From positions 1 to 47,678 of the forward strand of contig NZ_AYXG01000084.1 in assembly GCF_000564855.1 (NCBI RefSeq): DNA of 47,678 bases, given 5' to 3'. Position 1 is the first letter of the stretch; the number at the start of each line of letters is the position of its first letter. The notes beneath the pieces are model-generated. The model worked only from the letters and a program-made list of their open reading frames with translations. It was not told the DNA's origin and did not search any database. Position numbers and translations under genes: made by a program. This stretch comes from Actinokineospora spheciospongiae (GTDB lineage Bacteria; Actinomycetota; Actinomycetes; Mycobacteriales; Pseudonocardiaceae). Below, one piece after another: positions 28,539 through 47,555 of the stretch.

Positions 28539-29615
28539 TCAGATGCCGAGGCCCTTGGCCAGGACCGGCCAGGAGTTGTGCAGTGCGCGCTCCCAGTAGG
28601 GCCAGCTGTGGGTGCCCTTGCCGTAGTAGTCCACAGTGGCCGGGATACCGAGCTGCTTGAGCCGGTCGGTGAAGCTGCGCGAGGTCAGCAGCGTGGACGC
28701 GTCCAGCGGGTCGCCGCCCTTGCCGGGCGGGTCCAGCGGGCCCACCTCGCCGTTGCCAGAGCTGATGTAGAGGTTGGTGCCGCGGAACTTCTCGATGTTG
28801 TTGTACGGGTTGTGCGCCTGCCAGATCCAGAAGGTGACCATCTCGTCACCCCACAGGTCGGCCGGGTTCCAGAAGCCCTCGCGGACCAGGATGCCCTTGA
28901 TCACGCCCGCGGTGCCGACGAACATGGTGTTCGGGATGCCGCTGTAGGAGGCGACGGAGGCGAAGGTGCCGGGGAAGCGGAAGCCGTAGGCCAGGGCGCC
29001 GTAGCCGCCGATCGACACGCCCGCGACGGCGCGCTTGGTGCCGCCCTTGTAGCCGCGCTCGATGATCTGGAGGACCTCCTTCATGTGGAAGGCCTCCCAG
29101 TTCGCCGTCTTGCGCAGGCCGAGGTTCCACCACTCGGAGTACATGCCCGCCGGGCCGTCGGTGGGCATGACCGTGATGACGCCCTTGTCGGCGGTGAACG
29201 CCTTGGCGTCGGTCATGGAGTCCCACGACTTGTAGTCGAGGTCTTCGCAGCAGCCGTGCAGCAGCCACAGCTGCGGCCAGGTGCGGGTGGCCGTCGCCGA
29301 CCAGTCGGTGGGGAGGTAGACGCGGACCATGCCGTTCTTGAGCAGCGCCGGGCTCTGGATCTCCAGGTCCAGGGTGCGCTCGTCGATCCGGGTCTCCTTG
29401 ACGACCTTGGCGCCGTCGTCGGCGGTGACCTGGGGGGCGCCGGAGGGGAGGGTGGCCGCGGGGGCCGCGGTCGTGGTGGTCGGGGTGGGCTTGGTGGGCC
29501 ACCACGGCCACGCGGCGTTCGCCGGGCTCTGCACCAGGGTCGCCGACACCACAGTGGTCAGGACGACCGCCGCGCCCGCGATCACGCTGCGGCGTAAGCG
29601 GCGTGGGCGCGACAC
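28539..29615 (-). CDS. Exported antigen-85/esterase-D-like hydrolase
   Basis: The 358-residue protein has a Sec signal peptide (VSRPRRLRRSVIAG, a hydrophobic stretch, cleavage after ANA) and a Pro/Thr-rich linker (PTKPTPTTTT) suggesting wall residence. The alpha/beta-hydrolase domain belongs to the esterase D/antigen 85 group (PF00756): LHGCCEDLD oxyanion region, nucleophile Ser201 in GVSIGGYGA, and a C-terminal His in GKGTHSWPYWERAL, the position found in mycolyltransferases. It is the last gene of the FAAL-PKS-AccD operon, 54 bp after accD. By analogy with mycobacterial Fbp proteins it may transfer the lipid made by the PKS, or it may hydrolyse it. GTG at 29615 has AGAGG 5 bp upstream; ATG at 29639 is an alternative. 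Confidence 0.82.
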   Translation of the reverse strand: MSRPRRLRRSVIAGAAVVLTTVVSATLVQSPANAAWPWWPTKPTPTTTTAAPAATLPSGAPQVTADDGAKVVKETRIDERTLDLEIQSPALLKNGMVRVYLPTDWSATATRTWPQLWLLHGCCEDLDYKSWDSMTDAKAFTADKGVITVMPTDGPAGMYSEWWNLGLRKTANWEAFHMKEVLQIIERGYKGGTKRAVAGVSIGGYGALAYGFRFPGTFASVASYSGIPNTMFVGTAGVIKGILVREGFWNPADLWGDEMVTFWIWQAHNPYNNIEKFRGTNLYISSGNGEVGPLDPPGKGGDPLDASTLLTSRSFTDRLKQLGIPATVDYYGKGTHSWPYWERALHNSWPVLAKGLGI

Positions 29616-29669
29616 GTCACCTCTTTGTGTCCGTGGCATGGGCTGGCACTCCGTTCTTGTCACATTCCC

Positions 29670-31271
29670 CTACAGGGGGATGTTCCCGTGCTTCTTCGCG
29701 GGAAGGGTCTGCTTCTTGGTGCGGAGCGAGCGCAGCGCGCGGGCGACCTGGACGCGGGTCCGCGACGGCGGGATCACCATGTCGACGTAGCCGCGCTCGG
29801 CGGCGACGTACGGGGTGGTCTGCCACTGCTGGTACTCGTCGGTCAGCTTGCGGCGCAGCGCTTCCCGCTCGGGCTCGGGTGCGGCGTTGAGCTCGCGGCG
29901 GTGCAGGATCTGCACCGCGCCCTGCGCGCCCATCACCGCGATCTCGGCGGTGGGCCAGGCGATGTTGACGTCGGCGCCGAGGTGCTTGGACCCCATCACC
30001 GCGTACCCCCCGCCGTAGGCCTTGCGGACCACGACCGTCACCATCGGCACGGTCGCCTCGGAGTAGCTGTAGATCAGCTTGGCGCCGCGCCGGATGATCC
30101 CGCCGCGCTCCTGGTCCATACCGGGCATGTAACCAGGAACATCGACAAAGGTCACGAGGGGGATGTCGAACGCGTCGCAGAAGCGAACAAAGCGAGCTGC
30201 CTTCTCCGAGGCGTCGATGTCGATGACGCCCGCCTGGTGCAGCGGCTGGTTCGCCACCACGCCGACCGTGCGGCCCTCGACGCGGCCGAACGCGCAGATC
30301 ATGTTCCTGGCGAAGCCCGCGTGGATCTCGGTGAACTCGCCGTCGTCGAGGACCCGGCTGATGACCTCGTACATGTCGTAGCCCTGGTTTGGCGAGTCCG
30401 GGACGATCCGGTCGAGCACCCGGTCGGAGGCGGTGACCTCGGGGTCGCCGTCGAAGTCGTAGACCGGGGCGGGCTCGACGTTGTTCGCGGGCAGGTAGCC
30501 CAGCAGCGTCTGCACCCACTCGATGGCGTCGGGCTCGTCGACCGCGCGGTAGTGGGCGTTCCCGGAGACCTCGCTGTTGACCCCCGCGCCGCCGAGCTGG
30601 TCCTGGGTGACCCGCTGCCCGGTGACGGCGTTGACCACCTCGGGGCCGGTGACGAACATGTGCGAGGTGTCGTCGACCATGACGGTGAAGTCGGTCATCG
30701 CCGGGGAGTACACCGCCCCGCCCGCGCACGGGCCGAGGATCATCGAGATCTGCGGGATGACCCCGGAGGCGTGCGCGTTGCGCCTGCCCAGCTCGGCGTA
30801 GTACGCCAGGGAGACCACGCCCTCCTGGATGCGCGCGCCGCCGGAGTCGTTGATGCCGATGATGGGGCAGCCCAGGGTCATCGCCAGGTCCATCACCTTG
30901 AGGACCTTGCCGCCGAACACCTCGCCCATGCTGCCGCCGAAGACGGTGAAGTCCTGGGAGAACAGGCACACCTGGCGGCCGTCGATGGTGGCCTCACCGG
31001 TGACCACGCCGTCGCCGTAGGGGCGCTGGGCGTCCATGCCGAAGTCGGTGGTGCGGTGCCGGGTGAACATGTCCAGCTCGGTGAACGAGCCGGGGTCGAC
31101 CAGCAGGTCGATCCGCTCGCGCGCGGTGAGCTTGCCCTTGGCGTGCTGCCGGTCGGCCGCCCGCTTCTCGGCCAGGCGGACCACCTCGTCCTGCCTGCCG
31201 GTCAGGTCGGCGATGCGGTCGGCGGTCGTCGGGGCGAAGGAACGTCCGTCGAACTTGTCTTCTCCGAACAT
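29670..31271 (-). CDS. accD4: Acyl-CoA carboxylase carboxyltransferase subunit (AccD4-like)
   Basis: The 533-residue beta subunit transfers carboxyl groups from biotin to an acyl-CoA. The N-terminal half carries KLTARERIDLLVDPGSFTE, the oxyanion segment INDSGGARIQEGV and LGPCAGGAVYSPAMTDF. The C-terminal half has FVDVPGYMPGMDQERGGIIR, KAYGGGYAVMG and the final NIPL common in actinobacterial AccDs. It lies 60 bp downstream of the PKS, as accD4 follows pks13 in mycobacteria, where it makes the carboxyacyl-CoA extender. The AccA3-type biotin subunit is not in the window. ATG at 31271 has GGAAGG upstream. The AccD call is firm; the AccD4 label rests on context. Confidence 0.88.
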   Translation of the reverse strand: MFGEDKFDGRSFAPTTADRIADLTGRQDEVVRLAEKRAADRQHAKGKLTARERIDLLVDPGSFTELDMFTRHRTTDFGMDAQRPYGDGVVTGEATIDGRQVCLFSQDFTVFGGSMGEVFGGKVLKVMDLAMTLGCPIIGINDSGGARIQEGVVSLAYYAELGRRNAHASGVIPQISMILGPCAGGAVYSPAMTDFTVMVDDTSHMFVTGPEVVNAVTGQRVTQDQLGGAGVNSEVSGNAHYRAVDEPDAIEWVQTLLGYLPANNVEPAPVYDFDGDPEVTASDRVLDRIVPDSPNQGYDMYEVISRVLDDGEFTEIHAGFARNMICAFGRVEGRTVGVVANQPLHQAGVIDIDASEKAARFVRFCDAFDIPLVTFVDVPGYMPGMDQERGGIIRRGAKLIYSYSEATVPMVTVVVRKAYGGGYAVMGSKHLGADVNIAWPTAEIAVMGAQGAVQILHRRELNAAPEPEREALRRKLTDEYQQWQTTPYVAAERGYVDMVIPPSRTRVQVARALRSLRTKKQTLPAKKHGNIPL

Positions 31272-31331
31272 CACAGCCTTCCTTCCTCACTCAGGTCATC
31301 AGGGGCACTCGGGTGGGGTGTTCCGTTGTTC

Positions 31332-34300
31332 CTAGTGAGCTGGTGAGCGCGGGTGGTCGAGTGCGGCGCGCAGCTCCCGCGCGATGACGGCGACGTTCGG
31401 CGGGTCGATCATGCTGAGGTGGTCGCCGGGGACCTTGACCACCTCGAGGGCGGGGGCGAACTCGTCCCAGCCCAGGGTGTCGTCGGTGCGCTTGTAGCGC
31501 GGGTCGAGCTGCGTGGTGAGCGGGTGCGGCTCCTTGGCGCGGAACAGCACGACCCGGCCGCCGTAGGGGCGCGGCTGGTAGTTCTCCGCGACCCGGGCGT
31601 CCACGTAGGACGTGTACTGGTGGTGCAGCACCGCGGCGCCCATGCCGGAGACGTTGGCCGCCAGGGTGTCGATGATGTAGCGGATCTGCTGCTCGTCGTC
31701 GAGGCCGCCGAGCTTGTCCGCGCCGAGGTCGAGCTTGACGCCGTAGGTCTCCTCGATGTGCTCGGCGAAGCGGCTGAACCGGTCGAGGATCAGGTCCTGC
31801 TGCGAGATCGGCTCGGCCGATTCCAGCGGCAGGATCGTGTCGATCATGGCGACCAGCTCGACGTGCTCGCCCGCGGCGGTGAGCAACTGGGCGATCTCGT
31901 AGGACAGCATCCCGCCGAAGGACCAGCCGCCGAGCCGGTACGGCCCGCTGGGCTGGACCTCGCGCAGCAGCTCCAGGTAGCGCCGCGCCTTCTCCTCCAG
32001 CGTGTCCACGTCGTCGAGCCGCTCGAACCCGTAGACCGGCACGCCCTCGCCCATGAGCTGCACCAGCGAGCGGTAGACGCTCGTCGGGCCGCCCGCGGGG
32101 TGGAACAGGAAGACCGGGGTGCCGGTCTCGCAGGCCCGCAGGACGCGCAGCGGCTTGCCGCCGTTGCCCTCCACCTGGTCGCGCAGCAGGTCGGCCATGG
32201 CCGCCACGGTGGGCTCGCTGAACAGCGTGCCGTAGTCGGGCACCGAGTCCAGTTCGCGTTCGATGGCGGCGTAGACCGCGTCGGCCTGGGCGGCGTCGCC
32301 GAGGGCGAAGAAGTTGTCGTCGACCCCCGGTTCCCCGCTCTCCAGCACGTCCTGCCAGATCCGGGCAACCCACCGCTCGGACGGGTCGCGCGGGCCGACC
32401 TTCGCCGGGGCGCTGCCCGGCTTGCGGGCGGCCCGGTCGGCCGGGTCGGCCTCGCCGAGGCCGGACGCCTCGGCCAGGTGGTCGGCGATCTCGGCGAGGC
32501 TGGCGCCGCGCAGCAGCAGCGGCACCGGCAGCGGCAGCCCGAAGTCGCGCTCGACCGCGCCCCGGGCCCGCATGGCCAGCAGCGAGTCGAGGCCGAGCTG
32601 GGTCAGCGGCACGTACCGGTCGATCCGCTCGGCGGCGAAGCCCATCAGCTCGGCGATGATGGCCACCAGGTGGTCCTCCAGCGCCTGCCGGGCCGCGGCG
32701 GGTTCCAGCGCGCGCAGCTCGGACATGCCCGCCCAGGCGGGGCCGCCGGTCTCGGCCGCCTGCTCGGCGGGCCGGACCAGCTCGAAGAACGGGCGGGTGG
32801 CCAGTTGCGGGAACAGCGACATGGTGGTGCCCAGGTCGAGCCGGGCGATGCCGGTCGCGGCCCGGCCGCTGGCCAGCACCGCCTCCAGCGCCTCCATGCC
32901 CTCCTGCGGGCCGAGCGGGTCGAGCACCGGGTTGTCCCGGCCCACGGCGCCGCCGACCTCGGCCCACGCGCCCCAGTTGACGGTGGTGGCGGTCAGGCCC
33001 CGGGACCGGCGCCAGGTCACCAGCGCGTCGAGCCAGGCGTTGGCGGTGGCGTAGGCGCCCTGGCCGGGCGAGCCGAACAGCGCGGCGGCCGAGGAGTACA
33101 TGAGCCACCAGTCCAGGTCGTGGCCCAGGGTCGCCTCGTGCAGCGCGAGCGCGCCGGTGGCCTTGGCGTGCCAGACCTTGGCGACGTCGGCACCGTCCAG
33201 GGTGGCGGTGGCGCCGTCGGCGAGGACACCGGCGGCGTGCAGGACACCGCGCAGCGGGACACCACCGGCGGTGGCGGCGGCGACCAGCCGGTCGGCCACC
33301 CCGGCCTCGGCGACGTCGCCCGCGACGACCTCGACCTCGGCACCGAGGCCGCGCAGCTCGGCGACCAGCGGTTCGGTCTCCTCGGTCAGGCCGCGGCGGC
33401 CGGAGAGCACGACGCGGGTGGCGCCGTTCTCCGCGAGCCACTTGCCCGCGAGCAGGCCCAGTCCGCCGAGACCACCGGTGACGACGTAGCCGCCGTCGCG
33501 GACGGTGTGCCCCTCGCCGCGCTCGTCGACCTGCTCATCGATCTCGGCCTTGGCGAGCTTGGCGATGTGCCGCGCGCCGCCGCGCCAGGCGACCTCGTCG
33601 GCGGCGTCGTCGGCGGTCAGCTCGGCGGCCAGTTCGGCGACCCAGTCCCCCTCGACATCCAGGTCCAGGGCCGTGGCGCGCAGTTCGGGGTTCTCGAAGG
33701 CGAGGACCCTGGCCAGGCCGCGCAGGGCGGCGAGGTCGGGCGAACCGGCCTCGTCGGCGCCGACCGCGGCGGCGCCGCGGGTGACGATCCACAGGCGCGG
33801 AGGCTGCCACCCGGGGTCGACCTGGTCGGTGAGCTGCGCCACCAGGCTCGACACGGCGAGCACGTGCGCCTGCGCCGCCTCGGGGGAGAGCCCGGTGCCG
33901 GGTTCGGCCACGAACACCACGCCCGCCGGGGTGCGCCCGGCCAGGGTGAGCTGGTCCACGCGCGGCAGGCACAGCACCTCCCCGCCGGGGAGCCGGTCGC
34001 GCAGCCCGGTCAGCCAGTCGCCCGGCTCACCCTCGGCCACGACCACCCAGGTCTGCCCGTCGGCGGCGGTGTCGTCGAGGTCCCCCCGCTCCCAAGAAGC
34101 CTCGAAGGCCTTGGCGGACAACGGGAGCGGCACCGACGAGCGCTGCATCCGGCGCACGTAGACACCGGCGACGTCGACGACGACCGCCCCGTCCGCGTCG
34201 ACCAACTGCACGGCGCCGACCAGGCCGTCGAGCCCCTCGTCGAGGGAGTCCAGCCGGGCGTCGACGCGCACGGCGGTGCCCGGGTCGCCGAGGACCCGGA

Positions 34301-37300
34301 CCGCGCCGAGCGACAGCGGCAGGTAGGTGCCGCCGCCCGCGCTGATCCGGTCGAACGCGGCGGCGGCGAGCGCGTGCAGGCTCGCGTCCGACAGCGCCGG
34401 GTGCAGCACGTGACCGGTCGCGCGCCCGGCTTCCTCGGGCAGGGCGATGGCGGCGGAGGCGGTGCCGGAGCCCGCCACCACCGACCGCAGGCCGCGGAAG
34501 GCGGGGCCGTAGGCCTGGCCCATCTCGGCCAGCGCCGGGTAGAGGTCGACGGCCCGGCCGTCGGTGGTCTCCCCCAGCGGGGTCACGGCGGCGTCGCCGC
34601 GGCGCACGGTGGCCGAGGCGTGCCGGGTCCAGGTGCCCGCCGCCGACTTGGCCGAGACGGTGACGACGCCGGCGTGCTTGCCGGTGAGCGTCAGCGAGGT
34701 GGTGATCTCGGTGTGCGCGGCCAGCGGCAGGACCTGGGTGAGTTCGACGTCGCGGACCTCGACGAGGACCTTGCCGCCGAAGGCTTCCCGGGCGGCGGCG
34801 AGCGCCAGTTCCAGGTAGCCGGTGCCGGGGAAGATCGCCACGCCGTGCGCGGCGTGGTCGCTCAGCCACGGGTGGGCGTCGGTGCCGACGTCCGCGCGCC
34901 AGACGTGCCGGTCGCCCTCGGGCAGTTCGATGTGGACACCCAGCAGCGGGTGCCGCCCGGCCGGGGCGGTCGCCGAGGCGCGCTTGCGCGGCCAGAAGGC
35001 GTGGTGCTCCCAGCGCGGGCCGGGCAGCGAGACCGGCGGGGCCGCGGCGTGCCGGGCGGCCAGCGCGGTCGGGTGCCCGGTGGTGTGCAGGGCGGCGAGG
35101 CTGGTGAGGAACGTGGTGCGCTCGTCGTCCTTGCGGTGCGCGCTGGGCAGCCCCAGCACGGTGACGTTGCGGGCGCCACCCGCGGTCTGCTCCAGTGCCG
35201 CGAGGGCGATCGGGTGCGGGGAGACCTCGACGAACCGGGTGTGCCGGTCCTCGATCGCCGCGGACAGCGCGTGCGCGAAGCGGACCGGGCGGCGCAGGTT
35301 CTTCACCCAGTACTCGACGTCGAACGCGGGCGCTTCCCTCGGGTCGTCCAGCACGCTGGTGTAGCAGGGCACGGTGGCCCGGCTCGGCTCCAGGTCCGCC
35401 AGCCCGGCGCGGAACTCGTCGAGCACCACGTCCACCGCGGGCGAGTGCCCGGCGCCGCCGACCTTGAGGCGCCGCGCCAGGCGGCCCATGCCCTCCACGT
35501 GCGCCACCAGCGCGCCCACCTGGTCGGCGTCGCCGCTGACGGTGCACTGGGTGGGCGAGGCGTAGACGGCCACGGTGATGCTGGGCCACTGGGCCTCCAG
35601 CTCGGCCAGCTCCGCCGGGGACAGCTCGACCACGGCCATGGCGCCGACCCCGGAGGCGTCGATGCCCGAGAGCAGCCGGGCGCGGGTGGTCATCACCCGC
35701 AGGCCGTCGGCGACGGTGAGCGCGCCCGCGACGACCGCGGCGGCGACCTCGCCCATGGAGTGCCCGACCACGGCGGCGGGTTCGACGCCGTGCGCGCGCC
35801 ACAGCGCGGCGAGGGCGACCTGGATGCCGAACAGGGTGGGCTGGGTGGCGGCGAGGTCGGGAAGCTGCTGCTCCCCGGCCAGCACCGCGCGCAGCGAGAA
35901 TCCGGTGACCTCGACGAAGGCCGGGTCCAACTCCTCCACGGCGGCGCGGAAGGCGGGTTCGGTGGCCAGCAGCGTGCGGCCCATCCCGTCCCACTGCGAG
36001 CCGTAGCCGGAGAAGACGAACACCACGTCGCTGTCATCGCGCCGGGCTGTGCCGGTGCGCACGTCCGGGCGGGGCTCCCCGGCGCCGAGCGCGCGCAGGG
36101 CGTCCACGAGGGACTCGCGGCCGGTGCCGACGACGGCGCCGCGCACGGCCAGGTGCTCGCGGCGGCGGGCCAGGGTCGAGGCGACCGCGCCGAGCGCGAC
36201 CCCCGCGTTCTCCTCGGCGGCGAGCCAGTCGGCCAGGTCGGTCGCGCGCTGGGCCAGCGCGGTCGCCGAGCGGGCCGACAGCGCCAGCACGTGCGTGTCC
36301 CGGTCGTCGCCGCGCGGCACGCGCTTGCGCTTGGCGGGCCACTCCTCCAGCACCACGTGGGCGTTGGTGCCGCCGAAGCCGAACGCGGACACGCCCGCGC
36401 GGGCCAGGCCGGAGTAGCGCGGCCACGGGGTGGGCTCCGGGATGACCCGCAGGCCGTTGCCGTCGAAGTCGATGTTCGGGTTGGGCGCGGTGTAGTGCAG
36501 GCTGGCCGGGAGCCGCCCGTGCTTCATCGCCAGCACGACCTTGATCAGACCCGCGATGCCCGCGGCGCCCTCCAGGTGCCCCAGGTTGGACTTCACCGAG
36601 CCCAGCAGCAGCGGGCGGTCGGCGGCGCGGTCCCTGCCGAGCACCGCGCCGAGCGCGCCCGCCTCGATCGGGTCGCCGAGGAAGGTGCCGGTGCCGTGCG
36701 CCTCGACGTAGTCCACACCGGACGGGTCCAGTTCGGCCACCGAGTAGGCGTCGCGCAGCAGCGCGGCCTGCGCGTCGGGGTTGGGCGCCATCATGCCGTT
36801 GGAGCGGCCGTCGGAGTTGACCGCGCTGGCGCGGATGACCGCGAGCACCCGGTCGCCGTCGCGGCGGGCGTCGGTCAGCCGCTTGAGCACGACCACGCCG
36901 CAGCCCTCGCCGCGCACGATGCCGTCGGCGGCGGCGTCGAACGCCTTGCACCTGCCGTCGGCGGCCAGCACGCCCGCGCTGGTGAAGTTGGCGAACACCG
37001 CGGGCGAGAGCAGCAGGTTGACCCCGCCGACCAGGGCGTGGTCGGTCTCACCGCGCTGCAGGCTCTGCACGCCGTGGTGCACGGCGACCAGCGACGACGA
37101 GCACGCGGTGTCGACGGTCATGCTCGGGCCGCGCAGGTCCAACTGGTACGACAGCCGGTTGGCGGCGATGCTCGCCGCCGCGCCGGTGCCCGACCACGCG
37201 TCGATGGTGGGCAGGTCGACCATGGTCAGGTGGCCGTACTCGGTCGCGGACAGTCCCACGAAGACACCGGTGCGGCTGCCGCGCAGCGAGGCGGGCGCGA

Positions 37301-37883
37301 TGCCCGCGTCCTCCAGCGCCGCCCAGGAAACTTCCAGCAGCAGCCGCTGCTGCGGGTCCATCGCCTCGGCCTCGCGCGGGGTGATGCCGAAGAACGCCGC
37401 GTCGAACCCGGCGACGTCGTCGAGGAAGCCGCCGAGGCGGGGCAGGCCGTCGAGGTCGGCGGCGGGCGCGAAGTCCTCCCACCGGCCCGCGGGCACCTCG
37501 GAGATGGCGTCCTGGCCCGCGGACAGCAGCGACCAGAACGCCTCCGGCGAGTCGACGCCCCCGGCCAGCCGCACACCGAGGCCGACGACCGCGACGGGCT
37601 CGCCGGGCGCGACCGCGGCCGCGACCAGGGGCTGGTCGCGGCCGGTGTCCTCGCCGGTGAGCGCGGCCACCAGCGCGGAGATCGTCGGGCTCTCCCAGGC
37701 CAGCGTCGGCGGGAGTGGTCTGCCGAGCAGCTTGCCCAGGTCACCCGAGAGCGTCACCGCGTCGCGGGAGGACATCCCCAGTTCGGTCAGCGGCCGGTCC
37801 GGGTCCACTTCCCCGACCGGGAGGTTGCGCAGTTCGGCGACCCGACCCACCAGCCAGGCGAGCAGGTTCTCCTGGGAGGTCAT
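31332..37883 (-). CDS. Pks13-like type I polyketide synthase with added DH and KR
   Basis: This 2183-residue megasynthase has domains in order: N-terminal ACP (Ser39 in GMSSRDAV); KS (about 90-515; Cys261 in DTACSSS, then EAHGTGT and KSNLGH); AT (about 590-890; Ser709 in GHSMGEV, specificity loop GAGHS at about 812, neither YASH nor HAFH); DH (about 965-1235; His1010 in HAAHGVAIFP, Asp1166); KR (about 1465-1650; GGLGGLG, Tyr1611); ACP2 (Ser1767 in GLDSLLAM); a carrier-like domain (about 1830-1895) reading FFALGDAAQ without the serine; and TE (Ser1988 in GWSFGG). There is no ER or methyltransferase. An N-terminal ACP fed by an adjacent FAAL, plus a terminal TE, is the Pks13 design; DH-KR is extra. 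Its ATG overlaps the FAAL stop (ATGA). Confidence 0.9.
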   Translation of the reverse strand: MTSQENLLAWLVGRVAELRNLPVGEVDPDRPLTELGMSSRDAVTLSGDLGKLLGRPLPPTLAWESPTISALVAALTGEDTGRDQPLVAAAVAPGEPVAVVGLGVRLAGGVDSPEAFWSLLSAGQDAISEVPAGRWEDFAPAADLDGLPRLGGFLDDVAGFDAAFFGITPREAEAMDPQQRLLLEVSWAALEDAGIAPASLRGSRTGVFVGLSATEYGHLTMVDLPTIDAWSGTGAAASIAANRLSYQLDLRGPSMTVDTACSSSLVAVHHGVQSLQRGETDHALVGGVNLLLSPAVFANFTSAGVLAADGRCKAFDAAADGIVRGEGCGVVVLKRLTDARRDGDRVLAVIRASAVNSDGRSNGMMAPNPDAQAALLRDAYSVAELDPSGVDYVEAHGTGTFLGDPIEAGALGAVLGRDRAADRPLLLGSVKSNLGHLEGAAGIAGLIKVVLAMKHGRLPASLHYTAPNPNIDFDGNGLRVIPEPTPWPRYSGLARAGVSAFGFGGTNAHVVLEEWPAKRKRVPRGDDRDTHVLALSARSATALAQRATDLADWLAAEENAGVALGAVASTLARRREHLAVRGAVVGTGRESLVDALRALGAGEPRPDVRTGTARRDDSDVVFVFSGYGSQWDGMGRTLLATEPAFRAAVEELDPAFVEVTGFSLRAVLAGEQQLPDLAATQPTLFGIQVALAALWRAHGVEPAAVVGHSMGEVAAAVVAGALTVADGLRVMTTRARLLSGIDASGVGAMAVVELSPAELAELEAQWPSITVAVYASPTQCTVSGDADQVGALVAHVEGMGRLARRLKVGGAGHSPAVDVVLDEFRAGLADLEPSRATVPCYTSVLDDPREAPAFDVEYWVKNLRRPVRFAHALSAAIEDRHTRFVEVSPHPIALAALEQTAGGARNVTVLGLPSAHRKDDERTTFLTSLAALHTTGHPTALAARHAAAPPVSLPGPRWEHHAFWPRKRASATAPAGRHPLLGVHIELPEGDRHVWRADVGTDAHPWLSDHAAHGVAIFPGTGYLELALAAAREAFGGKVLVEVRDVELTQVLPLAAHTEITTSLTLTGKHAGVVTVSAKSAAGTWTRHASATVRRGDAAVTPLGETTDGRAVDLYPALAEMGQAYGPAFRGLRSVVAGSGTASAAIALPEEAGRATGHVLHPALSDASLHALAAAAFDRISAGGGTYLPLSLGAVRVLGDPGTAVRVDARLDSLDEGLDGLVGAVQLVDADGAVVVDVAGVYVRRMQRSSVPLPLSAKAFEASWERGDLDDTAADGQTWVVVAEGEPGDWLTGLRDRLPGGEVLCLPRVDQLTLAGRTPAGVVFVAEPGTGLSPEAAQAHVLAVSSLVAQLTDQVDPGWQPPRLWIVTRGAAAVGADEAGSPDLAALRGLARVLAFENPELRATALDLDVEGDWVAELAAELTADDAADEVAWRGGARHIAKLAKAEIDEQVDERGEGHTVRDGGYVVTGGLGGLGLLAGKWLAENGATRVVLSGRRGLTEETEPLVAELRGLGAEVEVVAGDVAEAGVADRLVAAATAGGVPLRGVLHAAGVLADGATATLDGADVAKVWHAKATGALALHEATLGHDLDWWLMYSSAAALFGSPGQGAYATANAWLDALVTWRRSRGLTATTVNWGAWAEVGGAVGRDNPVLDPLGPQEGMEALEAVLASGRAATGIARLDLGTTMSLFPQLATRPFFELVRPAEQAAETGGPAWAGMSELRALEPAAARQALEDHLVAIIAELMGFAAERIDRYVPLTQLGLDSLLAMRARGAVERDFGLPLPVPLLLRGASLAEIADHLAEASGLGEADPADRAARKPGSAPAKVGPRDPSERWVARIWQDVLESGEPGVDDNFFALGDAAQADAVYAAIERELDSVPDYGTLFSEPTVAAMADLLRDQVEGNGGKPLRVLRACETGTPVFLFHPAGGPTSVYRSLVQLMGEGVPVYGFERLDDVDTLEEKARRYLELLREVQPSGPYRLGGWSFGGMLSYEIAQLLTAAGEHVELVAMIDTILPLESAEPISQQDLILDRFSRFAEHIEETYGVKLDLGADKLGGLDDEQQIRYIIDTLAANVSGMGAAVLHHQYTSYVDARVAENYQPRPYGGRVVLFRAKEPHPLTTQLDPRYKRTDDTLGWDEFAPALEVVKVPGDHLSMIDPPNVAVIARELRAALDHPRSPAH

Positions 37884-39673
37884 GCGGGGCGTCCGTCCTT
37901 GAGGGTGCCCTCGGCCCAGCGCTTGCGGCACACCGCGCGGCTGACCTTGCCGCTGGAGGTGCGCGGGACGCCACCGGGCTCGACGATGAGCACGTCGTGC
38001 AGGGACAGGCCGTGGTGGTGCGACACCGCGGCCTTGACCGCGCTGGTGACCTCGTCGCGGTCGAGGTCGGCGGCCTCGACGACCTTGGAGCGCTCCACCA
38101 TCACCATGACCTGCTCGGACTGGCCGTCGAACACCGAGAACGCCACCAGCGAGTGCTTGCGCACCGCCGGGTGCGCCTGCTCCACGGTCGCCTCGATGTC
38201 CTGCGGGTAGTGGTTGCGGCCGTCGACGATGATCAGGTCCTTCATCCGGCCGGTGATGTAGAGGTCGCCCTCGTGCAGCACGCCGAGGTCGCCGGTGCGG
38301 AACCAGCCGCGGCCGTCGACGCCGGAGCCGTCGAAGCCGTCGTCCTCCAGGGTCTGGCCGAAGGACTCGGCGGTCTGCTCCGGGCGGTTCCAGTAGCCCT
38401 GGGCGATGTTGACGCCGCTGAGCCACAGCTCGCCGACCACGCCCTCGTCGAGCAGCTTGCCCGACTCCGGGTCGACGATCCGCAGTTGCTGGTCGAACGC
38501 CCGGCCGCAGGAGACCAGCTCGGTGGTGCTCGGGGTCTGCGCGGTGGCGACCACGGCCAGGCCGCGGGTCAGCGCCTCGCGGTCGAAGGTGACCGCCTTG
38601 GGCAGCTCGCCCGGGGTGCCCGACGAGATCAGCACGACCGCCTCGGCCATGCCCATCGACGGGCGGTGGGCGGTGCGCGGCAGGCCGCACTCGGCGAACG
38701 CGTCGGCGAAGCGGTTGATCGACTTCATGCTGATCGGCTCGGAACCGTCCACCAGCGACACCACGTCGGACAGGTCCAGGAACGCCTTCTCCCGGTCGCT
38801 GACCCGCGACGCGGCGTAGGCGTAGGCGAAGTTCGGCGCGGCGGTGGTGGCGCCCTCCGCGTTGGCCATCGCCGCGACCCAGCGGATCGGGCGCTCCAGG
38901 AAGGCGATCGGGTCCATCATCACGACCGGGCGGCCCGACCACATCGGCACGGCCACCGCGAGCACCAGGCCCATGTCGTGGAACAGCGGCAGCCAGCTCA
39001 CCAGGGTGCCGTAGTCGTCCTCGTCGGTCATGTAGCACTCGGTGTTCTGCCGGGCGTTGGTCACCACGTTCCGGTTGGTGATCATCACGCCCGCCGGGAT
39101 GCGGGTGGACCCGGAGGTGTACTGCAGGTACGACACGGCGTCGGGCTCGGGCACGAACGGCGCGTAGTCGGCGGCCCTGGAGTCGGGCACGGTGTCGATG
39201 GAGGTGACGTGGGCGACCCCGATGCCCTTCTCGGCGAAGTAGGAGTCGAGCAGTTCGCGCTGGTCGTCCAGGGTGAGCGCCAGGGTCGGGGAGCAGTCGG
39301 CGAGCACCGCGGCCAGCCGGTCGGCGTGCCCCGGCAGGTCCGGCTGGAACAGCGGAACCGCGATCCGGCCCGCGCGCATGGCCGCGAGCAGCGCCACGAC
39401 GTACTCGGTGGACTGCCGGGCCAGGATGACCACCCGGTCGCCCTCGGCCGTGTGCGCCTGCACCTCAGCGGCGACCGCGCTGACCTTGGTGTCGAACTCC
39501 GACCAGGTCAGCGAGGTGGCGACACCGTCGACGCTGAAGCGGTAGTCCAGGTAGGTGATGGCGACCTCGTCGCCGTGCTCCTGCGCCCACCAGGCCAGCA
39601 GGGTCGCCAGGGAGTCGTTGCCGACCACCGGCCCCGCCACGGGGCTGTCGGTCCGCACACCACCAGAAGTCAT
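37880..39673 (-). CDS. fadD32: Fatty acyl-AMP ligase (FadD32-like)
   Basis: The 597-residue adenylating enzyme activates a long-chain fatty acid as acyl-AMP and should load it on the N-terminal ACP of the next gene's PKS. Visible are the ATP P-loop YLQYTSGSTRIPAG (about residue 165), LPLFHDMGL, the A5 region SMGMAEAVVLIS, GWFRTGDLGVLHEGDLYITG, the hinge GRMKDLIIVDGRNHYPQDIE and the C-terminal catalytic Lys in PRTSSGKVSR. FAALs carry a short insertion that disfavours CoA transfer; length and PKS partner fit. Position directly before a Pks13-like gene with ATGA overlap mirrors mycobacterial fadD32-pks13. ATG at 39673 has GAGGACGG upstream, and a promoter lies about 140 bp upstream. Confidence 0.9.
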   Translation of the reverse strand: MTSGGVRTDSPVAGPVVGNDSLATLLAWWAQEHGDEVAITYLDYRFSVDGVATSLTWSEFDTKVSAVAAEVQAHTAEGDRVVILARQSTEYVVALLAAMRAGRIAVPLFQPDLPGHADRLAAVLADCSPTLALTLDDQRELLDSYFAEKGIGVAHVTSIDTVPDSRAADYAPFVPEPDAVSYLQYTSGSTRIPAGVMITNRNVVTNARQNTECYMTDEDDYGTLVSWLPLFHDMGLVLAVAVPMWSGRPVVMMDPIAFLERPIRWVAAMANAEGATTAAPNFAYAYAASRVSDREKAFLDLSDVVSLVDGSEPISMKSINRFADAFAECGLPRTAHRPSMGMAEAVVLISSGTPGELPKAVTFDREALTRGLAVVATAQTPSTTELVSCGRAFDQQLRIVDPESGKLLDEGVVGELWLSGVNIAQGYWNRPEQTAESFGQTLEDDGFDGSGVDGRGWFRTGDLGVLHEGDLYITGRMKDLIIVDGRNHYPQDIEATVEQAHPAVRKHSLVAFSVFDGQSEQVMVMVERSKVVEAADLDRDEVTSAVKAAVSHHHGLSLHDVLIVEPGGVPRTSSGKVSRAVCRKRWAEGTLKDGRPA

Positions 39674-39818
39674 CGTGTCCCGTCCTCGGGGTTGTCAGGG
39701 GTTCGAACGCCCGCCGCTGAACATTCGACCGGAATTCAGATTGCGGCCAAATGTGAATCGACAATTGAGGTCCGACAGATCCGGTCGATCTGAGAATAGA
39801 ATTCGACCACCCACCGCC

Positions 39819-39848
39819 ACCATATTTTCCGGTGCCACGGGGTGTCAA
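39819..39848 (-). promoter_or_regulatory. Promoter of the FAAL-PKS-accD-esterase operon
   Basis: On the minus strand TTGACA (39843-39848) and TATGGT (39819-39824) are separated by 18 bp, close to the housekeeping sigma consensus. The transcript would start near 39812, giving a leader of about 140 nt before the FAAL start. The 351-bp gap 39674-40024 is markedly AT-richer than its surroundings and holds only this promoter and the terminator of the R2lox gene. Confidence 0.7.
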
Positions 39849-39990
39849 CCATTCGGGTTTACGCCACAAACGCCCAATTGCATAAAACAATGTTTCTTAG
39901 CGTTCGGAGGTGAAAACTCGCGCCCTCGTTGTCAACGCGGTGACAAGTCATCCACCCTCCCGACCACTCGTACGACCCACGCGCCCCGCC

Positions 39991-40018
39991 GCACCCCGCG
40001 GGCGCGCCCGCGGGGTGC
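39991..40018 (-). terminator. Terminator hairpin after R2lox
   Basis: A perfect 13-bp GC-rich stem (39991-40003 with 40006-40018) with a 2-base apex lies 6 bp after the R2lox stop codon. No T-tract follows. Confidence 0.65.
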
Positions 40019-40024
40019 CGCCGA

Positions 40025-40990
40025 TCACCCCTGGGCCGCCGCGGCGGTGTCCTCGGTGTGGAACTGCTCTTCGAGCTGCTCGGGGCTGTAGTCCAGGTCG
40101 ATCGCGGCCACGGACATGCCGCGCGCGCCCTCGATCGCCCCGAGCCTGCGCAGCGCGTGGTTGCCCGCGTACTCCATGACCCCGTCGAGCTTCATGTCGA
40201 ACGGGTCGCCGTCGAACTGCTTGGTCGTCCACTCGATCTGGGTGATCGCGTGCGGCAGCAGCCGCTGCATCTCGTCCTGCACGATCTGCCAGTTCGCGTC
40301 GTCGGCGGCCACGTGCCTGCGGCAGGTGAAGGTGCCCCAGGCCATGTGGCGGCGCTCGTCGTTGCCGATCGAGCGGATGAGCTGCTGCAACCCGGGCAGG
40401 ATGCCGTTGCTGCGGCAGGCCGCGTTCCACACGTGGTAGCCGGTGAGCGCCAGCACGCCCTCGACCACGTGGTTGTAGACCACCGAGGCGCGCACCTGGT
40501 TGGCCGGGCTCGGGTCGGAGGAGAGCCGGTGCAGGGCGTTGGGCAGGGCGTCGTAGAAGATCGCCCGGTAGCCGGGGTTCTCCTCGACGTGGGAGTGCAG
40601 GTCCTCCTTGACCCCCACCGCGTCCAGCCACAGCCGGAAGGCCTGGGTGTGCTTGGCCTCCTCGAACAGGAATTGGGTCAGGTACATCTCGTCGCCGAAG
40701 CGGCCCTCGGCGCCCATGGCCTGGATGAACGGCTGGATGTCCTGGGTGACGGCCTCCTCGCCGCCGACGAACTGGGCGCAGAGCATGGTGGCGATGAAGC
40801 GCTGCTCGTCGTTGAGGTTGGCCCAGTCCTCGGCGTCCTGCGAGAAGTCGATGGCGGCGGGGTCCCAGAAGCGGCGGTTGCCCTTGGCGAACAACCGCAG
40901 CGGCAGGGAGTCCCAGTCCATTCCGGCCTTGCTCAGTGAGTGGAACTGCGTCCGGCGCTCGGTGGCGGCCTGCTCGCTGACGTCGGTCAC
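40025..40990 (-). CDS. R2-like ligand-binding oxidase (R2lox)
   Basis: The 321-residue ferritin-fold protein has the complete R2lox metal site: Glu78, Glu111, His114, Glu177, Glu212 and His215, from GGEEAV, FEEAKH, NHVVEG and NDERRH. It also keeps Val81 and Tyr172, the pair that forms the Val-Tyr ether cross-link typical of R2lox; all sit at a constant offset of +10 from the Mycobacterium tuberculosis Rv0233 numbering as I recall it. R2lox assembles an Mn/Fe cofactor and binds a long-chain fatty acid in known structures; its reaction is unsettled. It is often annotated as ribonucleotide reductase beta, which these features argue against. GTG at 40990 has GAAGGAG upstream. Confidence 0.9.
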
Positions 40991-41033
40991 GGGACTAACT
41001 CCTTCAGGTGTTCTCGGGGAGGGTCGAGCGGGG

Positions 41034-42653
41034 TCACCCGGCGAACGGGACATCGATCCAGGACGGGTCCGCGGGCGAGGACAGGAAGCCCAGCTTGCCG
41101 CCGTCGGTGTTCTTGTCGATGAACAGCGCGTCCTTGGAGTCGACCACCAGCGCGAGCCGGTGCCCGGCGGCGAGGTTGTACGCCGTGGGGGTGAACCGCA
41201 GGTCGAGCGGCAGCGGTGCGCCGGGGGTCGCGCCGCGCCAGGTGTAGGGGGTGTAGTTGATCAGCTTGCCGGTGCCGAACCGGTCGACGTCGTAGACGTA
41301 GGCCACGACGGTGCCCTGCGCCTTCGGGGGGCTCACGACCAGGTGGGCGGTGATGTAGCCGCGGATCTTCTGCGCCGAAGCCGCCTTGGGGCCGTTCCAC
41401 ATGCCGCCGCTGGAGCGGTCGAGCACCTGCAGCATCGCCGTGGGCGGGTTGCCGCTGAGCGCCTCCAGGCTGTAGGTCGCCAGCGGGATGCCCCCGTTGG
41501 CCAGGGTGTCCTTGTTGGCGTTGACCTCGGTCTTCCACGCCGCCGGGGGCGCCGAGGGCAGTAGCTGGGCGTCGCCGCCGAACATCCCGGCGGGCTTCGC
41601 GCCGAGGTAGAGCTTCTGCTGCCGCTGGCCCTGCACCGCGGCCCAGTCGCCCGCGGGCTCGGCCTTGTTGGTGCCCGGCCGCGGCACGACCTGGATCGGG
41701 GCCTCGGCGGCGATCGCGGTGTCGGTGCCCGCCACGTGGGCGTCGAACCAGCGGTAGACCGAGTTCCACACCCCGCTGGGCAGGCCGAGCAGGCCGCCGG
41801 ACTCGGTGGCGGCGTGGTCGCCGGGCAGGATCTCCAGGCGCTTGGGACCGGTGAGCTGGGTGTACAGGTCGGCCATCTGACCGGGCTCGAAGACGGTCTC
41901 GCTCCAGGTCTGGATCATCAGCGTCGCGGGCTGGTTGCGGTTGATCTCGGCGACCCGGTTGATCGGCGACCGCTGCTGCGACCACGCCTTGATCGCGTCG
42001 TCCTGCGCGTCGGTGAGGTTCGGGTCGTAGATGCCCGCGAGCATCTGGTCGGACTCGAAGCTGAGCCTGCCGTTCTGCTTGCCGGACAGGTGCAGGACCA
42101 GGGCGGTGAGGCTGTGCCGGGTGTTCTCGGTCGACAGCGACCGCACCAGGTCGCTCCAGCCGCTCATCGAGGCCACGGCCTTGATCCGCGGGTCGGTGCC
42201 GGAGGCGAGGACGCCGATGCCCGCGCCGTAGGACACGCCCGCGACCCCGATCCGGTTCGGGTCGGACTCGGTGTTGGCCAGGCCCCAGTCGATGACGTCG
42301 GAGACGTCGGTGAGGTCCTGCCTGCCCGCGACCTGCACTTCGCCGCCGGACTCGCCGAAACCGCGGGTGCCGTAGGCGAGCACGGTGTAGCCCTTGTTCG
42401 CCAGGTTCACCGCGGGGACGGTGTTCTGCGTGACCCCACCGCCCCAGGCGCTGATGACGATCGCCAGCGGGTGCGGACCGGGCGACTTCGGTTCCATCAC
42501 CATCGTCCGCAGCAGGACACCGTCCCGCGCGGGCAGGTCCACGAAGCGGGTGTCGAACCCGCTCGCCTGCGCCCCGAAGGCACCGGGCACCCAGGCCACC
42601 AGTGCGGCGAGCATGGCGACCGCCGCGAGCACCGCGGCACGTTTGCGCGACAT
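41034..42653 (-). CDS. Exported CocE/PepX-type serine hydrolase
   Basis: The 539-residue protein begins with a signal peptide ([15 protein letters not shown], cleavage near GAQA). An alpha/beta-hydrolase domain follows with [12 protein letters not shown], nucleophile Ser141 in [10 protein letters not shown], Asp in the [11 protein letters not shown] region and His in [12 protein letters not shown]. The C-terminal 200 residues form a jelly-roll domain of the PepX/CocE kind (about residues 340-539). Family members are X-Pro dipeptidyl peptidases or esterases; the N-terminal signal puts it outside the membrane. It lies 43 bp upstream of R2lox on the same strand and they probably share a transcript. 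ATG at 42653 is chosen; 42665 is possible. Confidence 0.83.
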
Positions 42654-42780
42654 CCGAACACCCATTCCGATGTGACGAAGAATTCCCACGCCGCCGTGAA
42701 TGGCATTGACGATTCGGCCAAAAGCATTCAGAGAAGGCACAGGAACAAACCGCATTCCTTTATAAAACACCGACAATGGA

Positions 42781-42809
42781 AAGGTAGCATCGGTAAAATT
42801 TTGGGTCAA
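42781..42809 (-). promoter_or_regulatory. Promoter of the CocE-R2lox unit
   Basis: On the minus strand TTGACC (42804-42809) and TACCTT (42781-42786) are separated by exactly 17 bp, in an AT-rich region. The start would be near 42774, leaving a leader of about 120 nt. Confidence 0.65.
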
Positions 42810-43602: not shown

Positions 43603-44211
43603 TCACGGGTGCCCCACCCCGCCGCCGATCTCGCCCAGCAGGGCGTCGAAGGCGGCCGCCACCGCCGGGGTGAGCGCGTCCGGGTCGCTCCCGGCCTGCT
43701 CCCGGCCCGCCTGGAAGCAGGCCCTGGCCAGCCACGGAGCCAGCACCGCGGTCCGCTGGTCGGCCCGCATCCCGCGCAGGATGTCGCGGGCCAGCTCGAC
43801 CAGCCGGTCCAGCTTGCGCCCACCGCGGTCGGCCAGCTCGGGGTTGTCGCCGATGAGCTGCTCGCGCAGCCGGTAGTTCTCGCCGTCGACCACCGACTCG
43901 GCGCAGATGGACAGCACCAGCCCGCGCATCAGCTCCAGGGCGGTGCGCAGGTCGGGGGCGCGCTGCACCGGCACCGGCTCGTAGCGGGCGCGCACCTCGT
44001 CGAGCAGCTCCTGCTCCCCGGCGAACACGACCTCCTGCTTGTCGCCGAAGTACCGGAAGAACGTGGTGCGGCCGACCTCGGCCCGGTCGGTGATGTCGGT
44101 GACGGTGACGCCCGCGTAGCCGCGTTCGGCGAACAGGGCGTAGGCCGCGGCGACGATCTCCTGCCGGGCCCGCTGCCTCTTGCGCTCGCGCAGTGGTGGC
44201 CGGTCGTCCAT
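43603..44211 (-). CDS. TetR-family transcriptional regulator
   Basis: The 202-residue regulator has the N-terminal TetR helix-turn-helix: EIVAAAYALFAERGYAGVTV, then TDITDRAEVGRTTFFRYFGD (about residues 18-58), with the conserved FFRYFGDKQE. The C-terminal helical ligand domain belongs to the MftR/TetR_C-like type with an acyl-regulator look but no assignable ligand. ATG at 44211 was chosen because translation could not start earlier: a TACACT -10 element lies only 6 bp upstream and no Shine-Dalgarno exists, pointing to a leaderless transcript. A 16-bp palindrome upstream may be its own operator. Confidence 0.87.
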   Translation of the reverse strand: MDDRPPLRERKRQRARQEIVAAAYALFAERGYAGVTVTDITDRAEVGRTTFFRYFGDKQEVVFAGEQELLDEVRARYEPVPVQRAPDLRTALELMRGLVLSICAESVVDGENYRLREQLIGDNPELADRGGRKLDRLVELARDILRGMRADQRTAVLAPWLARACFQAGREQAGSDPDALTPAVAAAFDALLGEIGGGVGHP

Positions 44212-44217
44212 GGCGGG

Positions 44218-44264
44218 AGTGTATCGAGTACGAATCGGTACGCGGTACCACTCGGCACCGAGTG
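44218..44264 (-). promoter_or_regulatory. TetR gene promoter with palindromic operator
   Basis: TACACT (minus strand, 44218-44223) lies 6 bp before the ATG. Upstream is the perfect inverted repeat CACTCGG-CA-CCGAGTG (44249-44264) and a neighbouring pair of GGTAC motifs. Operator size and position fit autorepression by the TetR protein. Confidence 0.55.
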
Positions 44265-44323
44265 CGTCGAGGCATCGAAGACGTGATCGACCCATGTGTC
44301 GTGGACCACAGTGGCCAGGAACG

Positions 44324-44360
44324 CGCGTGCCCCTCCGACCGGTGGTCGGAGGGGCACGCG
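44324..44360 (-). terminator. Terminator hairpin of the M4-M28 protease gene
   Basis: A perfect 17-bp stem (44324-44340 with 44344-44360, loop GGT) lies 8 bp after the protease stop codon. It is the longest perfect stem seen in the window. Confidence 0.85.
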
Positions 44361-44368
44361 TGGGGTCG

Positions 44369-47302: not shown

Positions 47303-47412
47303 CGATGCTCCTCGTGGCAGGGTTGCACGCCCGGGTCGAGCGGGGACACGCCCCAACCGGGCCCCACGAGCATCCGCACCCGGCACAGCACGGGTCAACA
47401 CGGCGGCGGAAT

Positions 47413-47431
47413 CCGTCAAAGAACCGTCAAA
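47413..47431 (-). promoter_or_regulatory. Direct-repeat box upstream of the protease gene
   Basis: CCGTCAAA occurs at 47413-47420 and again at 47424-47431, an 11-bp period (TTTGACGG on the minus strand), about 110 bp before the protease start. Such spacing is typical of OmpR-family or other dimeric activator sites. A further TTGACC is at 47394-47399. The 47303-47678 gap has no supported gene. Confidence 0.45.
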
Positions 47432-47555
47432 CCCCCTGACGGCACAACGCAAACCGGTCAACACGGCAAATCCGACACCGAGACCCGCCAACGTAGCCGC
47501 CGACCACCCGACACACCGACACACCGACGGCCCGGCGACTCGGCCACACAAACGC

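Follow-up and report, generated by a model that had tools for sequence, protein, structure and literature searches.

What is an apparent relative of the mycolic acid condensation locus doing in an order regarded as mycolate-free? In the part of PMC6194230 that is cited here, the Pseudonocardiales are described as being without mycolic acids, with arabinogalactan present in some of their species. The same part calls it a mystery how the mycomembrane arose, and dates the mycolate genes to a point after a late node in the tree of the actinobacteria. We take up this question for Actinokineospora spheciospongiae (Pseudonocardiaceae), in the window NZ_AYXG01000084.1, 1-47,678, by which we mean the whole stretch of 47,678 nucleotides that was analysed. 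Genes for an S15-type hydrolase, an R2-like ligand-binding oxidase (R2lox), a fatty acyl-AMP ligase (FAAL), a reductive polyketide synthase (PKS), an acyl-CoA carboxyltransferase (AccD) and a mycoloyltransferase-like esterase (Est) all lie on its minus strand. A preliminary description of this DNA had named the last four, in the position and order that we find, but had overlooked the R2lox and S15 hydrolase genes in the same interval.

Gene order and the reductive synthase

The stop codon of the FAAL gene is overlapped by the ATG of the synthase gene. The gene order of the window is also found in all eight named relatives, one of which has it split across contigs, and the FAAL-PKS-AccD order recurs in 11 of 20 further loci, so the arrangement is more than chance. 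The reductive synthase is a recurrent family and not a one-off. Its thioesterase (TE) is matched in 85 of 297 family genomes, and the counts of reductive loci across the host order are lower bounds, with three candidates scored per genome. A TetR-type regulator ORF (43603..44433, minus strand), whose true start is probably inside the called ORF, has NCBIfam TetR-family matches of at best 55 bits, below cut-off; a TetR gene also adjoins the locus in L141 and L142. MFS/MMPL-type transporters adjoin some relatives of the locus. In the genome, 11 stretches on 6 contigs match the MMPL family, counted at family level.

The FAAL (37880..39673, minus strand, 597 aa) is FadD32-like in the sense of best-hit kinship only. 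FAAL subfamily models are its top matches, yet all stay under their cut-offs (NF009124, 598 against 922 bits; the FadD32 equivalog, 564 against 975). The FAAL tree, built without L217, carries long-branch warnings, as do the AccD and Est trees.

The synthase (31332..37883, minus strand, as are all its domains; 2183 aa) has the order nACP-KS-AT-DH-KR-ACP-pseudoACP-TE. The N-terminal ACP (37629..37883) has its Ser in GMSSRD, and the KS (36324..37601; PF00109/PF02801) has the motifs DTACSS, EAHGTGT and NLGH. The AT (35049..36041; PF00698) contains GHSMGE, with GAGH at what we take to be the selectivity position. His1010 and Asp1166 of the DH (34119..34961; PF21089/PF14765, PKS_DH_N/PS-DH) lie in HAAHGVAIFP and DASLH, and the KR (32904..33566; PF08659) has GGLGGLG at 1470, the Ser, and Tyr1611 in YATAN. 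These DH residues, the KR Tyr and the Rossmann motif had all been named before and are present, as are the Pfam domains behind the claim that a DH and a KR are inserted into a Pks13-like architecture. The earlier domain list had missed a carrier-like (pseudo-ACP) domain and linker (32109..32441; PF00550, 25 bits, cut-off 20.8). This domain is found between the C-terminal ACP (32439..32681; PF00550, GLDSL) and the TE (31332..32141), and has no phosphopantetheine Ser at the aligned site. The best solved match of the TE is the Pks13 TE (8tqv, E 4.7e-50). No enoyl reductase is among the 13 Pfam families listed.

The family is variable at several of these sites. The DH is broken in L182 and L183 and has Glu for Asp in L149 and L150, while the KR has His for Tyr in L197 and Ala for Ser in L199, and beta-processing may therefore differ between members. 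The AT motif is GAAH in L181, L190, L191 and L194, AAAH in L197 and L199, and VAAH in L185 and L196. Nine Pks13 rows have GASH or GAGH (GAGH in three), and three other PKSs (L192, L193 and L198) have VASH.

The synthase does not reach the cut-off of the Pks13 model NF040607 (2100 bits), scoring 723 bits, or 1383.5 bits for the entire ORF. When the entire synthase is compared with solved structures, MAS comes first with 1003 bits and Pks13 follows with 932. Of the 48 rows in the KS tree, nine from Pks13 and 24 from reductive synthases share one clade (support 96), a grouping towards which the choice of L181-L200 as matches to the Pks13 model introduces a bias. Outside this clade fall the three other PKSs and eight KSs taken from the 62 KS matches of the host genome; for that sample, the tree rules out an ordinary modular PKS identity for the KS. 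In a tree of KS, AT, ACP and TE (40 rows) the 24-row reductive clade is the sister of Pks13 (96/94) and does not lie inside it. The phylogenetic check proposed in the preliminary description thus came out, on a limited sample, on the side of Pks13. A single clade of all 26 reductive rows was rejected by the AU test (p 0.029, with long branches flagged), because L185 and L196 lie outside.

The carboxyltransferase and the exported esterase

The acyl-CoA carboxyltransferase beta subunit (29670..31274, minus strand; PF01039) has a pocket of the MccB/AccD4 type. Over its length it is most similar to MccB (5inf, 824 bits), then to PccB (761) and AccD4 (528). In the window and in all eight relatives, Gly is found at the position of MccB-161 and Ala at that of PccB Asp421, and Gly/Ala pocket residues are reported for the alkylmalonyl-CoA-forming MccB in the portion of PMC5187497 cited. 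The same pair occurs in 10 of the 11 other AccD-bearing reductive loci and in eight of nine Pks13-linked AccD4s, the exceptions (L184 and L208, respectively) having Ser/Ala. Two host paralogues have Phe/Asp (L211) and Ala/Ala (L212). The PccB chains that we aligned have the Phe and other residues in the place of the Asp, so the PccB-type Asp rests on that portion of PMC5187497 and on L211. A plain PccB identity is ruled out by the pocket residues. The earlier label 'AccD4-like' is therefore apt for the pocket, which matches most Pks13-linked AccD4s, but not for overall similarity, which is nearer to MccB and PccB. The AccD tree does not resolve a sister relation to AccD4, and L212 falls in the same unresolved group. 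Left out of the AccD comparison are L210, which duplicates the window, and L217, which gave no match at the threshold used.

Est (28539..29663, minus strand; PF00756) has a signal stretch by eye. PS1 is its best solved relative (E 5e-46), with Cmt1 and Ag85A-C also matched, and the catalytic Ser and His are present in all 31 aligned rows; L210 and L219 (duplicates) and L142 (whose match begins just ahead of a stop codon, leaving a frame of 3 aa) were set aside. The claim of an Ag85-fold esterase is in keeping with these matches. Judged by sequence, Est is a relative of PS1 and Ag85 for which mycoloyl transfer is only predicted, and it could be an ordinary esterase. Taken together, the grouping of the KS with Pks13, the matching AccD pocket and the kinship of Est to PS1/Ag85 support the first naming of this locus, as a mycolate-type condensation locus whose synthase is Pks13-like and reductive, in the sense of kinship and type of chemistry.

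An R2lox linked to the synthase

The R2lox (40025..41053, minus strand) scores 541.6 bits against NF006199 (cut-off 286) and its start is likely the GTG at 40990, behind AAGGAG. A ribonucleotide reductase subunit was considered and rejected, as those models reach only 18.6-40.3 bits. The top PDB matches are 7qbp and 3ee4. Motifs that align between the window protein and 3ee4 are presumably those of the metal ligands and the Tyr-Val cross-link. Next to it is an S15/CocE-type alpha/beta hydrolase (41034..42770, minus strand; PF02129 and PF08530; TIGR00976 105.5 bits, cut-off 66.3), with an N-terminal hydrophobic stretch that by eye is a signal peptide.

Do these two genes belong to the pathway, or are they a neighbour pair that travels with the cluster outside its chemistry? 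In at least 17 of 297 family genomes, with five genus codes and two arrangements, an R2lox (matches of at least 441 bits) and the synthase TE are no more than about 9 kb apart, and the S15 hydrolase adjoins the R2lox in all 15 linked loci examined. The 16 PKS-linked rows form one clade of the R2lox tree, with none of 73 free rows inside. L055 was counted as linked although its contig ends beyond the R2lox, the FAAL-PKS-AccD-Est genes of that genome being on a separate contig (L143); L228, which repeats the position of L057, was not included. The number of linked genomes and the exclusive clade rule out an accident of one genome, and together with the two arrangements they argue against a bystander pair, as do five named species that carry another R2lox without such genes in the stretch examined (L097, L102, L116, L119 and L127). 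That said, R2lox was not found in the 20 further loci nor in L229, from the same genus, and is therefore accessory and not core. Core FAAL-PKS-AccD-Est loci without R2lox speak for bystanders, and in genus code g93 the pair is on the opposite strand, some 3-4 kb past Est. On balance we find it doubtful that the pair is a bystander.

In the part of PMC10867098 cited, alkanes are proposed as the substrate of one Geobacillus R2lox, octadecanoic acid is an unlikely substrate for GkR2loxI, and the natural substrate is unsettled. If a whole clade of R2lox proteins belongs to a single lipid pathway, that pathway would offer a defined candidate substrate.

A predicted pathway and its relation to known systems

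We consider it probable that the locus directs a single Pks13-like condensation, with reduction and probably dehydration in the synthase, release by the TE, handling outside the cell and oxidation by R2lox. The FAAL would adenylate a fatty acid and load it onto the N-terminal ACP. AccD, with the general biotin subunit of the cell, would form an alkylmalonyl-CoA by carboxylating another acyl-CoA; the AT would load this extender onto the C-terminal ACP, and the KS would couple the two units one time. The KR would then reduce the beta-keto group and the DH would probably dehydrate it; in mycolate synthesis, this reduction is the task of a separate enzyme, CmrA. The Pks13-type TE may release or transfer the chain, for Est to handle outside. 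In a subset of genomes the dedicated R2lox, with the exported S15 hydrolase alongside, may oxidise the precursor or the product. From this we infer a long-chain alpha-branched lipid made by mycolate logic, with its single condensation, dehydration, chain lengths, acceptor, surface location and R2lox step.

The same genes might instead make a small product that diffuses away, a branched acid or a lactone, which the exported hydrolases would modify or degrade and which would have no envelope role. The patchy distribution of the TE match, a PKS-rich genome and the transporters beside some relatives are consistent with such a secondary metabolite. We regard it as unlikely, as the KS groups with Pks13 and away from the host KSs sampled, and a mycoloyltransferase relative and an AccD4-type pocket belong to the same run of genes. 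An iterative highly reducing PKS, which would add several malonyl units to the FAAL starter and yield a fatty acid that is polyunsaturated or hydroxylated, AccD being a spare malonyl or methylmalonyl supplier, would fit the lead of MAS over Pks13 and a KR and DH that would leave double bonds for want of an enoyl reductase, but is very unlikely given trees that place the synthase closer to Pks13 than to L192, L193 and L198, a GAGH shared with three Pks13 rows in place of their VASH, and an AccD without the Phe/Asp of the PccB-like paralogue.

A bolder reading is possible, which we put forward tentatively: that Pseudonocardiaceae and relatives regarded as mycolate-free make a second mycolate-like envelope lipid, and that the mycolate locus is a simplified sister. 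This lipid would be alpha-branched, reduced or unsaturated, and in some species oxidised by a dedicated R2lox; a PS1-like transferase would esterify it outside. Pks13 would have lost the DH and KR, with reduction moved to CmrA, and the FAAL-PKS-AccD operon would therefore predate mycolic acids. A sister operon with the same gene order, in hosts regarded as mycolate-free, is a concrete object for the question of mycomembrane origin. Which product did the common ancestor form, and did the lineage leading to Pks13 lose reductive domains? Among the matches listed from the open-access literature, none described a reductive Pks13-like synthase or a link between R2lox and a PKS.

Known systems resemble the locus in part. 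MccB, of the stambomycin medium-chain acyl-CoA carboxylase (5INF), is the best solved relative of AccD and has the same Gly/Ala residues, but feeds a modular macrolide PKS according to the portion of PMC5187497 cited, whereas AccD of the window has a FAAL and a synthase akin to Pks13 in its own gene row. The R2lox shares its family model and motifs with known R2lox proteins (3ee4 from M. tuberculosis, 7qbp and Geobacillus 4hr0; PMC10867098, in the part cited), and differs in being a PKS-linked, monophyletic paralogue. Est resembles PS1, Cmt1 and Ag85 in sequence, in the Ser and the GTHSWPYW-type His motif and in an apparent signal for export, but mycolates are not known from its host group. 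The synthase does not fit the ACP-KS-AT-ACP-TE order of Pks13, which is without reductive domains. The comparison with fadD32-pks13-accD4 made at the outset is right for the FAAL-PKS-AccD order, common to the locus and all nine mycolate loci, but not for the esterase, which is downstream of AccD here and has its relatives upstream of FAAL in all nine. The DH, the KR and the Ser-less carrier domain before the TE set the locus apart, while the N-terminal ACP, KS, AT, ACP and TE, the AT motif class, the AccD pocket, a nearby mycoloyltransferase relative and the sister synthase are alike. By these sequence comparisons the locus is, among those compared, the nearest relative of the mycolic acid cluster.

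The synthase and its gene row

The locus is encoded entirely on the minus strand and comprises, in order of reading, a TetR-type open reading frame (44433-43603), an S15/CocE-type hydrolase (S15, 42770-41034), an R2-like ligand-binding oxidase (R2lox, 41053-40025, probable start 40990), a fatty acyl-AMP ligase (FAAL, 39673-37880), the synthase (PKS, 37883-31332), whose start codon overlaps the FAAL stop, an acyl-CoA carboxyltransferase beta subunit (AccD, 31274-29670) and an exported mycoloyltransferase-superfamily esterase (Est, 29663-28539). A TerC/Alx-type membrane protein (28471-27215, minus strand) lies 3' of Est; it is also found in two Actinokineospora loci, L141 and L142, and was not detected in the other locus stretches searched. 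By eye, a long open reading frame at 44369-47524 resembles a secreted metallopeptidase carrying an additional peptidase domain.

The domain order of the synthase is nACP-KS-AT-DH-KR-ACP-pseudoACP-TE. The DH residues His1010 and Asp1166 and the KR Tyr1611, claimed in the preliminary description, are present in the window protein, as is the KR Ser. The other catalytic residues examined are all in place (nACP Ser, KS Cys/His/His, AT Ser, ACP Ser and TE Ser/His). The pseudoACP, which precedes the TE, matches PF00550 above the cut-off in all three segments scanned; its phosphopantetheine-site Ser is absent from the window protein and from every other reductive synthase (Pks13-like, with DH and KR inserted) alignable there, and tblastn did not detect the domain in L190, L191 or L196. 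The AT motif is GAGH in the window and in eight of the nine loci L221-L229, L229 having no match to the pattern. Pks13 rows carry GASH (six) or GAGH (three), eight other reductive rows GAAH, AAAH or VAAH, and L192, L193 and L198 VASH. DH residues are missing from L182/L183 and substituted in L149/L150, and L197 and L199 have substituted KR residues, which counts against fixed beta-processing.

Spread of the locus and its association with R2lox

A scan of genome contigs gave 513 R2lox loci, of which the best 80 were taken. S15 adjoins R2lox in each of the best eight (L053-L060), and seven have FAAL and PKS within the stretch examined. For the eighth, from A. thermalba (L055), the stretch stops at a contig end and FAAL-PKS-AccD-Est is on a different contig. 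Est is immediately 3' of AccD in all eight genomes. The remaining 72 loci, some with short stretches, yielded no match to FAAL, PKS, AccD or S15 at E 1e-20, and a single Est match (L125).

Among 20 further loci chosen from Pks13-model matches, 11 (L181-L184, L186-L191 and L194) combine a FAAL-PKS-AccD row with matches to DH and KR, the DH match being only partial in L182/L183, and seven of these also have Est. The 11 belong to the order's family codes f1, f2 and f13. FAAL and a reductive PKS, with no AccD within the stretch examined, are found in L185, L196, L197 and L199; L192, L193 and L198 are other PKSs. FAAL with plain Pks13 architecture is found in L195 (G153 C160) and L200 (G112 C1), both from the window's own family, as nACP-KS-AT-ACP-TE without DH or KR and with a divergent Est relative. 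The window's genome (7,526,218 bases) hosts a second FAAL-reductive PKS-Est locus (L199, G000 C103), as do A. bangkokensis and A. pegani (L149, L150). AccD was not found in these stretches; the KR Ser is Ala in L199 and the DH Asp is Glu in L149/L150. In a same-genus genome, L229 (G013 C6) comprises FAAL-PKS-AccD-Est, with no R2lox or S15 in the stretch examined.

The nearest R2lox matches are from A. bangkokensis and A. pegani (83%). R2lox is present in 163 of 297 family genomes (E 1e-60), and a TE query matches 85, a count that takes in non-reductive relatives. Judged from contig coordinates, by which named and coded loci were also equated, R2lox and the synthase TE share a contig, about 9 kb apart at most, in at least 17 of the 297 (genus codes g1, 3; g48, 4; g16, 2; g77, 3; g93, 5); in G281 they are on separate contigs. 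S15 adjoins R2lox in all 15 linked loci examined (the window, L053, L054, L056-L060 and L221-L227), that is, all but those of G173 and G343. Genomes of g93 carry S15 and R2lox as a pair on the opposite strand, some 3-4 kb past Est. In an 89-row R2lox tree, built by a quick method without bootstrap, the 16 PKS-linked proteins form one clade (support 99) that includes none of the other 73. The system recurs beyond the mycolate family code and includes a subtype that bears R2lox.

The Amycolatopsis relatives have an MMPL transporter frame directly upstream of S15 (L056:6312-8387) and, between R2lox and FAAL, an MFS transporter (L057:10934-12355). In Saccharopolyspora a divergent gene adjoining S15 (L058:7001-8227, L060:6971-8206) encodes an apparently exported protein, lipase-like by eye.

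The passages cited from PMC10867098 give R2lox substrates as undetermined. They report that fatty or hydroxy fatty acids co-purify with R2lox proteins, that GkR2loxI is a proposed alkane monooxygenase for which octadecanoic acid is thought an unlikely substrate, and that two other R2lox showed no aldehyde-deformylating activity. R2lox would fit here as an enzyme that oxidises the product or a fatty acyl precursor.

Predicted chemistry

Against solved structures AccD scores highest with MccB (5inf, 824 bits), then PccB (761), AccD5 (675 and 671) and AccD4 (528), the AccD4 and AccD5 names being those of the 9t97 chain labels. MccB converts medium-chain acyl-CoA to alkylmalonyl-CoA, its pocket opened by Ala in place of PccB Asp421 and by Gly161, where enzymes handling at most four carbons have Phe (PMC5187497, passages cited). 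The Gly and Ala are shared by the window AccD, all eight R2lox-linked relatives, 10 of the 11 other AccD-bearing reductive loci, and eight of nine AccD4s adjoining Pks13; the exceptions, reductive locus L184 and AccD4 L208, have Ser/Ala. Own-genome paralogues have Phe/Asp (L211), Ala/Ala (L212) and Phe/Ile (L213) and, among more distant ones, Phe/Tyr (L214, L215) and Gly/Ala (L216, poorly aligned).

Est matches PS1, a Corynebacterium glutamicum protein, best (E 5e-46), followed by Cmt1 and Ag85A-C. The best TE matches are Pks13 TE structures; over its whole length, the best solved match of the synthase is MAS, not Pks13. Taken together, the AccD pocket, AT motif, TE and Est matches point to one round of Pks13-type condensation with an alkylmalonyl extender as the best reading. 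Ketoreduction would be built into the synthase through its KR, as would dehydration, if the DH works.

Kinship with mycolate synthesis

A 48-row KS tree, rooted on eight of the 62 KS matches in the same genome, bears out the proposed relationship: one clade (96) unites nine Pks13 with 24 reductive rows. In a 40-row KS+AT+ACP+TE tree, rooted on the three other PKSs (L192, L193 and L198), Pks13 (100/100) and the reductive clade of 24 rows (97/94) are sisters (96/94), and L195/L200 and L185/L196 lie outside both. As reductive synthases are placed within this grouping as well as beyond it, a loss of DH-KR on the way to Pks13 would be the simplest reading, one that depends on two long-branch loci (L185/L196) and the chosen root. 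In the AccD, FAAL and Est trees, all with long-branch warnings, mycolate-locus rows keep together in a single clade that excludes the window's gene; in the AccD tree, branching among AccD4, the reductive loci and L212 is not resolved.

Of 150 genomes searched in the order, at least 19 have a Pks13 scoring above the cut-off, and every one of these 19 belongs to family code f8. The window's synthase falls outside Pks13 proper, lacking two defining features of that family. A search of the open-access literature found no description of a reductive Pks13-like synthase or of an R2lox-PKS link. The passages cited from PMC6194230 describe Pseudonocardiales as without mycolic acids, report arabinogalactan from some species, and assign the reduction step of mycolate synthesis to CmrA.

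The mycolate-type locus with a reductive Pks13-like synthase of the preliminary description is real, and holds as kinship and as a type of chemistry, its product being a prediction. All nine examined of the 19 Pks13 loci have the FAAL-PKS-AccD row, with Est relatives upstream, and the locus described here is a variant of the mycolate condensation system.
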